Shown here piece by piece: positions 1-44,824 of a DNA stretch of 44,824 nt. The stretch's first letter is position 1. Every line of letters starts with the position of its first letter. The stretch covers positions 1 to 44,824 of IMG/VR virus record IMGVR_UViG_3300001749_000002. One strand, written 5' to 3'. The DNA comes from a virus. Below the pieces are notes generated by a model that did no database searches, was not told the DNA's origin, and worked only from the letters and a program-made list of their open reading frames with translations. A program made the position numbers and the translations under genes.

Positions 1-253
1 ATACACCTTACAAGAGGGGATGTCAAGTACTTTATGAAGCTATGCGAAATCTATAAATTTTACCGAGAAAATCTTAAGGTTTGTTTCTATGTAAGAAGGA
101 TACCCCCAAACCCCCTGCTCCCCCCTCCATAAACTAGAGGGTATACATACTATGAGCTAACATATATTTAGCCAAGACTGATTATTAGTTGGCTAACAAT
201 ACACATGCGAACTATATGTAGGCTTATTATTAGATAGCTAACTATATATATAT
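1..253. repeat. left direct terminal repeat
   Basis: Bases 1-253 recur without a mismatch at 44572-44824 in the same orientation. T7-supergroup podoviruses package concatemers by cutting at such terminal repeats, so this fits a genome end. The repeat contains a C-rich run (about 102-128) and the first part of a 15-bp periodic array. An overlap left by assembling a circular genome would look identical, so the physical ends are inferred. Confidence 0.85.
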
Positions 254-332
254 GAATTATTAGTGTAATCAATATTAGCTCACTCACTATTAGCTAACGC
301 ATTGTATCTATGCACACTATCAGTATCCCGCC
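183..332. repeat. degenerate 15-bp tandem array across the repeat boundary
   Basis: TATTAG occurs at 183, 228, 258, 273 and 288, so the spacings are 45, 30, 15 and 15, all multiples of 15. Intervening 15-mers start with TATATG, TATATA or TATCAG (213, 243, 318). Many units end in CTAAC, CGAAC or CTCAC. The rough consensus is TATTAGnnnnCTAAC, with about ten units. The array crosses the inner edge of the left terminal repeat at 253. T7 has short repeats beside its terminal repeat, so roles in concatemer processing, packaging or replication initiation are possible but inferred. Confidence 0.7.
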
Positions 333-2614: not shown

Positions 2615-3265
2615 ATGGCGCAATACACACAAAAACAACTGAAAACCATTTTGTCAGAACACAAGCTTTGGCTGCAAGGAGAGGGTGGGCGTCGTGCCGA
2701 TCTTCGCAAGGCCAATATTCGCTATGCCGATATTCGCGGTGCCGATCTGCGCTATGCCGATCTGAGTAGTGCCAATCTTATCAATGCCGATCTTCACTAT
2801 GCCGATCTGAGCGGTGCCGATCTTCGCTATGCCGATCTGAGTAGTGCCAATCTTCACTATGCAAATCTGCGCGAAGCCGATCTTCACGGTGCCCATCTGA
2901 GCGGTGCCAATCTTCGCTATGTCGATCTGCGCTATGCCGATCTGAGTAGTGCCAATCTGAGTGGTGCCGATCTTCGCTATGCCGATCTGAGTAGTGCCAA
3001 TCTTCTTTGCGCCGGAAACATGCGTGAAATCAAAACACTGCAAATAGAAAAATGGGCCATCGGCTATACAGCGGACACGCTGCAAATAGGGTGTCAGCGC
3101 CACCCAATCAGCAAATGGTGCAAGTGGAACACGCTAGCAGGTCAAAAGTGGATCACGACAATGGATAGGGACGCACTCGACTGGGCGCAAAGGCTGTTGC
3201 CTCTCGTTTTGCAGATCATCGACGCAAGCCCCGCAACGCCAACAGGACATGAGGAGACAACGTAG
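2615..3265 (+). CDS. pentapeptide-repeat protein
   Basis: A 216-residue protein; the ATG follows AAAGGAA at about 7 bases. Residues 28-132 are 21 uninterrupted pentapeptides of the A[DN]LXX type, which fold as a right-handed quadrilateral beta helix. Some family members (Qnr, MfpA) mimic B-DNA and bind gyrase. The C-terminal domain (about 133-216), with IGCQRHPISKW and a later ALDW, resembles the tail of pentapeptide proteins common in phages and prophages. The repeat is almost perfect at DNA level: the same 29-mer starts at 2750, 2825, 2930 and 2975. Roles as a gyrase-directed factor or DNA mimic are possible but not shown by sequence. Confidence 0.9.
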   Translation: MAQYTQKQLKTILSEHKLWLQGEGGRRADLRKANIRYADIRGADLRYADLSSANLINADLHYADLSGADLRYADLSSANLHYANLREADLHGAHLSGANLRYVDLRYADLSSANLSGADLRYADLSSANLLCAGNMREIKTLQIEKWAIGYTADTLQIGCQRHPISKWCKWNTLAGQKWITTMDRDALDWAQRLLPLVLQIIDASPATPTGHEETT

Positions 3266-3312: not shown

Positions 3313-3388
3313 GGCCCGTTAGCTCAGTGGATAGAGCAAGTGCCTTCTAAGCACTAGGTCCTAGGTTCAAATCCTAGACGGGTCGCCA
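3313..3388 (+). tRNA. tRNA-Arg (anticodon TCT)
   Basis: A 76-base cloverleaf. The acceptor stem GGCCCGT pairs with ACGGGTC with one G-U pair. The anticodon stem AGTGC/GCACT encloses loop CTTCTAA, giving anticodon TCT. The T arm is CCTAG-GTTCAAAT-CTAGG-like, and CCA is encoded. It reads AGA codons, which are frequent in this AT-leaning phage and usually rare in GC-rich alphaproteobacteria. Confidence 0.93.
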
Positions 3389-3420
3389 TTTACTACCTTA
3401 TTAGAGTAAGCCTTTAAAAG

Positions 3421-3506
3421 TGGGGTGTGGTGTAACGGTAGGCACAGGAGACTTAAAACCTCTAGGCTGAAAAGCTGTGCTGGTTCAAGTACAGTTACCC
3501 CTACCA
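3421..3506 (+). tRNA. tRNA-Leu (anticodon TAA)
   Basis: An 86-base class II tRNA with a long variable arm (AGGCTGAAAAGCT) that aligns with bacterial tRNA-Leu(TAA). The anticodon loop CTTAAAA gives anticodon TAA. CCA is encoded (3504-3506). Several pairs are imperfect: a first-pair mismatch in the acceptor stem, an A-C at the bottom of the anticodon stem and a G-A in the T stem. It may therefore be slightly degenerate or need host modification. It would read UUA codons. Confidence 0.8.
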
Positions 3507-43859: not shown

Positions 43860-44363
43860 TTACTGAAGGTGTCCCTGAGATTTAAGTCGTTCAAAGTCTG
43901 ATTTATAAGAGTTAGCTGCTACCTCAGATGTTTCCTTAGAGGCTGCCCTCTTTTTAGGTGTAGTCTTATCTTTCCAAGGCTCTTGAATTAGGTACCTAGA
44001 GGCTGCGAAGGCATTCTTCCCGTCATCTTCTACTTCTTTAACGATAGACTTAAAGGCTTTACGCTTACGGTGTACTTCAGCTAGTTGTCTCCACTTAGCT
44101 ACAGCCTCTCGAATCTGACTATTAGCTTTAGACAGAAACTCCCAGTATACGTAGTCTCCAAAGACTTCTTCAGCAAAGGTAAGCTCTGTAGCGTCATCTA
44201 CGCAGTACTGGACATAAAGGTCTTGTAGGCGGATGTAGTCGTCTCTGTGGGATGACAAGGTGAAGATAGGTTTGTCACCAGTCCTAGAGGTTTCAATGAA
44301 AAGGCTTGAGGTCTTCCTGATGCCTTGAGAGGTAAGGTAGTCCTCTTTCTTCAGAAGTGGCAT
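43860..44363 (-). CDS. terminase small subunit (putative)
   Basis: 167 residues, helical and charged, with LYVQYCVDDATELTFAEEVFGDYVYWEFLSKANSQIREAV and a basic C-terminus. First gene of the leftward arm, directly next to the right terminal repeat, and two genes from large terminase. Size is twice T7 gp18, but similar proteins are annotated as small terminase in marine podoviruses. Identification rests on position and general character. Confidence 0.65.
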   Translation of the reverse strand: MPLLKKEDYLTSQGIRKTSSLFIETSRTGDKPIFTLSSHRDDYIRLQDLYVQYCVDDATELTFAEEVFGDYVYWEFLSKANSQIREAVAKWRQLAEVHRKRKAFKSIVKEVEDDGKNAFAASRYLIQEPWKDKTTPKKRAASKETSEVAANSYKSDFERLKSQGHLQ

Positions 44364-44420: not shown

Positions 44421-44545
44421 TTAAAGTTACTTAAAGTATTTATTTTTAACTTTAAGTCTATTTTAATTACATAAGTTAATTTTAGTTCTTTAAGTCTATT
44501 CTAGAATCTTAAGAACTTTAAGTTCTGAATGTTAACTTAAGTTAA
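44421..44545. repeat. CTTTAAG-type repeat array beside the right terminal repeat
   Basis: TTAAAGT occurs at 44421 and 44431. The 13-mer CTTTAAGTCTATT occurs at 44450 and 44488, CTTTAAGT at 44516 and CTTAAGT at 44536. Bases 44532-44545 (TTAACTTAAGTTAA) form a perfect palindrome. The stretch is AT-rich, lies in the presumed leader of the structural transcript, and is next to the packaging cut. T7 has arrays of a similar heptamer next to its terminal repeats. Confidence 0.7.
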
Positions 44546-44568: not shown

Positions 44569-44597
44569 ATTATACACCTTACAAGAGGGGATGTCAA
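44569..44597 (-). promoter_or_regulatory. consensus sigma-70 promoter for the structural arm
   Basis: On the minus strand TTGACA (44592-44597), a 17-base spacer and TATAAT (44569-44574), an exact match to the consensus. Transcription would start near 44562 and read leftward into the small terminase and all structural genes. The -35 box and spacer are inside the terminal repeat; only three bases of the -10 box are outside. Confidence 0.8.
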
Positions 44598-44824
44598 GTA
44601 CTTTATGAAGCTATGCGAAATCTATAAATTTTACCGAGAAAATCTTAAGGTTTGTTTCTATGTAAGAAGGATACCCCCAAACCCCCTGCTCCCCCCTCCA
44701 TAAACTAGAGGGTATACATACTATGAGCTAACATATATTTAGCCAAGACTGATTATTAGTTGGCTAACAATACACATGCGAACTATATGTAGGCTTATTA
44801 TTAGATAGCTAACTATATATATAT
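44572..44824. repeat. right direct terminal repeat
   Basis: This is an exact copy of bases 1-253. Its inner edge carries the -35 box, the spacer and half of the -10 box of a leftward consensus promoter. The other half of the -10 box lies in unique sequence at 44569-44571, so the promoter is complete only at this end or at a concatemer junction. Confidence 0.85.

Follow-up and report, generated by a model that had tools for sequence, protein, structure and literature searches.

A worn 15-bp repeat array at the predicted terminal-repeat boundary of a marine Cobavirinae-type podovirus resembles the T7 short-repeat region in position and layout

In the viral DNA analysed here, a run of about ten worn 15-bp units lies across the position predicted for the right boundary of the terminal repeat, at the place where phage T7 has its CCTAAAG array. 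We read them tentatively, with a probability of about 40%, as a short-repeat region like the SRL of T7, situated at the terminal-repeat boundary and probably serving the processing of concatemer ends. In broader terms, the array probably takes part in, or was left behind by, the copying and cutting of DNA ends in these phages. The DNA, called the window below, is the whole of the viral contig record IMGVR_UViG_3300001749_000002 of IMG/VR (positions 1 to 44,824; 44,824 bases). Coordinates of its features are reported in Table 1.

Table 1. Features near the termini of the window, and a leader block found in relatives (last row, with the coordinates of each locus)
Feature	Position	Strand	Remarks
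phrog_8035 protein	43860-44363	-	167 aa, family-wide, beside the terminus
Box cluster left of the left terminus	44421-44543		ACTTAAAG/CTTTAAGT at 44429, 44450, 44488, 44516
Sigma-70 consensus promoter	44569-44597	-	TTGACA-N17-TATAAT, 12/12 match
Left-terminus block, conserved in Cobavirinae relatives	54-125	+	AAAATCTTnAG-n4-|-n14-AGGnnACCCCC...CCCCC; profile E 7e-13
Duplicate of the left-terminus block	44625-44696	+	Same profile; predicted start of the right terminal repeat ~44654
Predicted physical direct terminal repeat	83-255		159-172 bp if as in ICBM1/ICBM2; predicted right end 241-255
Degenerate 15-bp periodic array, ~10 units	176-325	+	Register 183+15n; from lag test, unit scores and masking
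Repeat copy of the opening units of the array (183-253)	44747-44824	+	At the right end of the contig, within the 100% overlap
TCATCGGCAAGCAAACACCG...GAGCAAGCCCTAGCAAGCAAG block	L106 4560-4660; L095 340-440; L097 475-560; L102 6310-6400		

Judging from its genes, the phage is a marine podovirus of the Cobavirinae type (Zobellviridae). Its TerL is 67-71% identical, over the full length, to those of the Roseobacter-group phages CRP-4, CRP-5, P12053L, ICBM1, ICBM2 and SIO1. The genes form two opposed arms and include CobS-/CobT-like genes, DNA polymerase, primase/helicase, ribonucleotide reductase, ThyX, portal and major head protein, a plan like that of the Cobavirinae ICBM phages (TerL, portal, two opposed arms). 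The arms are separated by about 1.4 kb of gene-free DNA, which includes positions 1-1427. When the first 20 kb of the window were compared at the DNA level with a phage collection, only a tRNA fragment was matched, and a 634-aa ORF used as a protein query against viral contigs gave no confirmed relatives. The plus strand carries tRNA genes for Arg(TCT) and Leu(TAA) at 3313-3506, whereas ICBM1 and ICBM2 are reported to have no tRNAs (PMC6775973).

An earlier note on this DNA had described five TATTAG boxes separated by multiples of 15 bp. Their positions, 183, 228, 258, 273 and 288, are exact and fall in a single 15-bp phase. Five TATTAG copies per 183 bp were obtained in 1 of 20,000 shuffles, and five in-phase copies of any hexamer, at periods of 8 to 30, in none of 3,000. 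The note had also proposed an autocorrelation at lag 15 against shuffles, and this was significant: identity at lag 15 was 0.504 over 183-332, compared to a mean of 0.280 in dinucleotide shuffles (z 5.56; 5.6-5.9 across tests). Lag 15 was the strongest of lags 2 to 40, followed by lag 30, with p <0.0005 when corrected for the lags tried. The gaps between the boxes are indeed occupied by degenerate units, as had been claimed, because period 15 persisted when the TATTAG boxes were masked (0.46 versus 0.27, z 4.3). The units are TATTAGNNNGCTAAC-like, with the consensus TATtAGtwtGCtmAC, and contain inverted TTAG and CTAA half-sites (TTAG-N4-CTAA).

Leave-one-out unit scores were positive in nine units (183-317), about zero at 318-332 and strongly negative outside, which sets sharp limits to the array, from 176/183 to 317/325. 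The extent first proposed, 183-332, was therefore about right, except that its last 15 bases score close to zero and that the start may lie near 176. Hidden, as the array had been called, was an apt word, since Tandem Repeats Finder does not call it over 176-325. No ORF of at least 60 aa runs across 176-309, so the array is not coding. Single-strand DNA folding of the array was not unusual (z −0.45 and −1.6), which leaves a hairpin role unsupported, and an Rfam search gave no significant match. The 15-bp spacing represents 1.43 helical turns; as this is not a whole number, successive sites would face different sides of the double helix. The motif TATTAG-N9-TATTAG-N9-TATTAG proved unusable as a family marker, with more than 100 matches across viral contigs.

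The position of this array relative to the ends of the genome depends on where these ends are. The earlier note had taken bases 1-253 as the terminal repeat. These bases are indeed identical (100%) to 44572-44824, but this is a 253-bp overlap of the contig ends and not the predicted physical repeat. A terminus profile was built from the blocks of relatives, taken from viral contigs and isolates with the window excluded, and was anchored on the ends of ICBM1 and ICBM2 mapped by PacBio. Searched with nhmmer, the window matched this profile only at the conserved block and at its duplicate (Table 1). From these two matches, the left physical end is predicted near base 83 (±1), not at base 1, and bases 1-82 are then probably contig overlap rather than terminal repeat. 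The terminal repeats of the ICBM phages begin at TTGTACATACAGCAGGCYACCCCC, and the spacing from AAAATCTT to AGG is 29 bases in both ICBM2 and the window. Cobavirinae terminal repeats and that of the window thus have in common a conserved left-end block and a GC-rich start, spaced as in ICBM2.

ICBM1 and ICBM2 do not share a conserved right end, and homology therefore cannot place it. The terminal repeats of ICBM1, ICBM2 and ICBM3 measure 159-173 bp by PacBio mapping (PMC6775973). A left end near 83 and a repeat of 159-172 bp would put the right end at 241-255, within the array; repeats of 74-138 bp or 711 bp reported for other Zobellviridae (PMC9960094) widen the uncertainty on this end. The overlap's own end, 253, falls inside the predicted interval. 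A cut near 253 within the array, as the earlier note had it, is therefore plausible, on the understanding that 253 itself is where a contig overlap stops. Likewise, the notion of an ordered array lying over a repeat boundary fits the predicted interval and the T7 array, although the boundary originally named was that of the contig overlap. Overlaps in relatives measured 99 and 127 bp, which we infer to be as expected from k-mers; the overlap of the window, of 253 bp and so of no obvious k-mer size, may or may not have this origin.

Left of the predicted terminus, a consensus promoter is directed leftward into the structural genes at a distance of 57 bp. The left overlap copy of this region starts at the edge of the −10 box, without most of it, and this truncation also counts against base 1 as the genome end. 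The promoter is found with a 12/12 match in ICBM1, SIO1, L020 and L056 as well, 48-104 bp from the terminus. Further left, the box cluster contains four exact copies of ACTTAAAG/CTTTAAGT, compared to 0.06 expected, together with TTAAGT/CTTAAG variants. It shows a weak 19-bp period (lag 19, p 0.003; Tandem Repeats Finder, 44450-44500, period 19). In the left flanks of relatives, ACTTAAAGG was seen in CRP-4 and GTACTTA repeats in L003.

The same periodicity test was applied to 14 lineages, the window included, on 240-bp segments placed by the terminus anchor. A z of at least 3.5 was reached in 7, 6 and 5 of the 14 for segments starting at −40, +20 and +80 from the anchor, and in 0 of 11-13 lineages for those starting at +320 or beyond. 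With a stricter segment, +25 to +265, which omits the first C-rich block, p was below 0.005 in 6 of 14 lineages, among them the window; the corresponding counts were 0 of 13 for the leader and 2 of 14 for the left flank. Arrays therefore recur at this position in related phages, a comparison that the earlier note had called for, but the unit sequence does not: no relative showed the 15-bp TATTAG unit. Periods were 15 bp in the window, 10 in ICBM2, 11 in CRP-5, 13 in L027, 8/12 in L056 and 24 in L060. The arrays of CRP-5/L112 (11 bp), L027, L056 and L060 are like that of the window in their position from the anchor, and unrelated to it in unit sequence and length. ICBM2 is the only one of the mapped Cobavirinae with a significant periodic array (10 bp) inside its repeat; ICBM1 has none. 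No significant array was found at the terminus in 8 of the 14 lineages, which include L003/L004, the closest ones with a readable terminus (TerL 82%). Among the arrays of relatives no 6- or 7-mer rose above the shuffle limit; the 7-mer TGTTACA fell just below it. A palindrome, TGTTAYANTRTAACA, occurs near the terminus in ICBM1, ICBM2, SIO1, CRP-4, L020, G001 and L115, at a varying distance from the repeat end.

Relatives thus offer a natural comparison, in which the left-end block is strongly conserved while right-boundary arrays recur with differing units. It sets a likely recognition signal apart from a zone where processing or turnover is likely, and predicts the positions of physical ends in uncultivated cobavirus genomes. 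Contig overlaps should not be taken as physical terminal repeats.

In T7-type phages, the cutting of concatemers duplicates the terminal repeat, and arrays of short repeats flank it. To our knowledge, the role of the T7 SRL has never been pinned down, and how terminal repeats are duplicated and cut in such phages, and what the adjoining arrays do, is still unsettled. Submitted to the same test as a control, T7 gave its CCTAAAG array on the right of the 160-bp terminal repeat, with a period of 12-13 and a z of 12. The T7 SRL and the window array share a short A/T-rich box at a fixed short spacing (12-13 versus 15 bp). Both stand in DNA without genes, ahead of the early genes, where the left terminal repeat has its right edge. 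Both genomes also have a cluster of boxes left of the terminal repeat (CCTAAAG versus CTTTAAGT). They differ in that the CCTAAAG box is missing from the window within 4 kb of either end, that the window array lies partly inside the predicted repeat whereas that of T7 is mostly just outside, and that T7 uses one box in its left and right arrays while the window has ACTTAAAG/CTTTAAGT on the left and TATTAG on the right. The window array is like the T7 SRL in position and layout, and is not a member by sequence; no homology is claimed. Replication and packaging of the T7 kind have been proposed for cultivated cobaviruses by their authors (PMC6775973).

In the SRL-like reading, a DNA-binding protein of the phage or the host would bind the repeated boxes and aid concatemer-end processing; the boxes might, for instance, mark the site of terminal-repeat duplication and of the right-end cut. 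What would be maintained is a repeated landmark, with letters that change along with the partner protein. The sequence-specific signal of the terminase would reside in the left-end block rather than in the array. The earlier note had named the small terminase as a candidate to bind the array. The conserved terminus sequence is however the left-end block (~54-125), which counts against the array as the main terminase recognition site and makes the block the better candidate, so that the small-terminase reading, in its present form, is not one we adopt. No small terminase could be recognised. The phrog_8035 protein beside the terminus was considered for this role and found no structural support: its AF2 model is helical (pLDDT 83), and nothing significant was found in the PDB, the best matches including Sf6 TerS with an E of 5 or worse. 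It is possibly a packaging protein. Most of the relatives compared have a homologue, situated upstream of the terminase gene; as a query against viral contigs, the protein gave no further confirmed relatives.

The main rival to the SRL-like reading is neutral repeat turnover, which we judge somewhat less likely: tandem duplications would be frequent in the terminal repeat and then decay, leaving the array as a functionless scar. The terminal-repeat region is duplicated, displaced and recombined in each replication cycle, and a position that recurs while sequence and period do not is accounted for nearly as well by turnover as by the SRL-like reading. The lack of an array in the nearest relatives, L003/L004, goes in the same direction. 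Duplication is moreover visible, both in the strongest pairwise repeat of the window array (45 bp, 175-219 and 220-264, 73% identity) and in the array of L060, which is fresh, with 4.5 copies at 98%. Turnover agrees less well with the fact that identity between units does not drop with their distance and resides mainly in a few columns (TAT at 1-3, G6, C11, A14). Uniform decay of the units was mildly disfavoured (p about 0.03), but this unevenness of columns is weak evidence, as the 45-bp duplication could produce it. The sharp limits of the array, and the clean box-plus-spacer array of T7 at the same location, also speak against a scar.

It is also conceivable, though we consider it improbable, that terminal repeats of Cobavirinae-type phages carry a fast-changing array specific to each lineage, that its repetitiveness and not its sequence is needed for end duplication or cutting, and that a co-evolving phage protein reads it, the TATTAG array of the window straddling the cut.

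Iterons and operators are less likely than the SRL-like reading and neutral turnover. The former, on which we would place a low probability, supposes that the units are replication-origin iterons which bind an initiator or a host protein and open AT-rich DNA for terminal or internal initiation. Plasmid and phage iterons are, like the window array, tandem, AT-rich direct repeats, and here the boxes stand in the 1.4-kb gene-free region, with a TATATATATA stretch inside. Iterons differ from them in unit spacing (usually ~21-22 bp, or two turns, against 15 bp), in degeneracy and in having an initiator gene. The window gave no helically phased ~21-22-bp repeats and no initiator among the proteins searched, and no conserved origin element was found in the arrays of relatives.

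Ranked just after iterons, and again of low probability, is an operator array, its TTAG/CTAA half-sites recognised by a repressor or activator of the divergent early and late arms. The inverted arrangement of these half-sites and the perfect leftward promoter near the predicted terminus would suit it. That promoter is however separated from the array by about 150 bp and by the left terminus, from which it points away. Promoter-like sites in 1-1500 were no commoner than in shuffles; one site with a 9/12 match lies inside the array (269-241, minus strand). Ten operator sites over 150 bp would also be unusual. Chance in low-complexity AT-rich DNA, or a mis-assembled repeat, is very improbable: the region is AT-rich, the contig end falls within a TATATATATAT run and overlap and physical repeat disagree on the left side, but dinucleotide-preserving shuffles reject chance, the units are too divergent for a collapse of reads, and the phase continues through 254-332, outside the overlap.

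Two other observations were made in the course of this analysis. A block TCATCGGCAAGCAAACACCG...GAGCAAGCCCTAGCAAGCAAG (Table 1) is conserved in gene-free DNA of the early leader in SIO1, ICBM1, ICBM2 and CRP-4, with no match in Rfam. A second and stronger 15-bp array, unrelated to the terminal one, is present at 2661-3035 of the window; it is coding, being contained in the ORF 2615-3265 (plus strand), where it corresponds to about 20 units of five-residue repeats resembling pentapeptide repeats.
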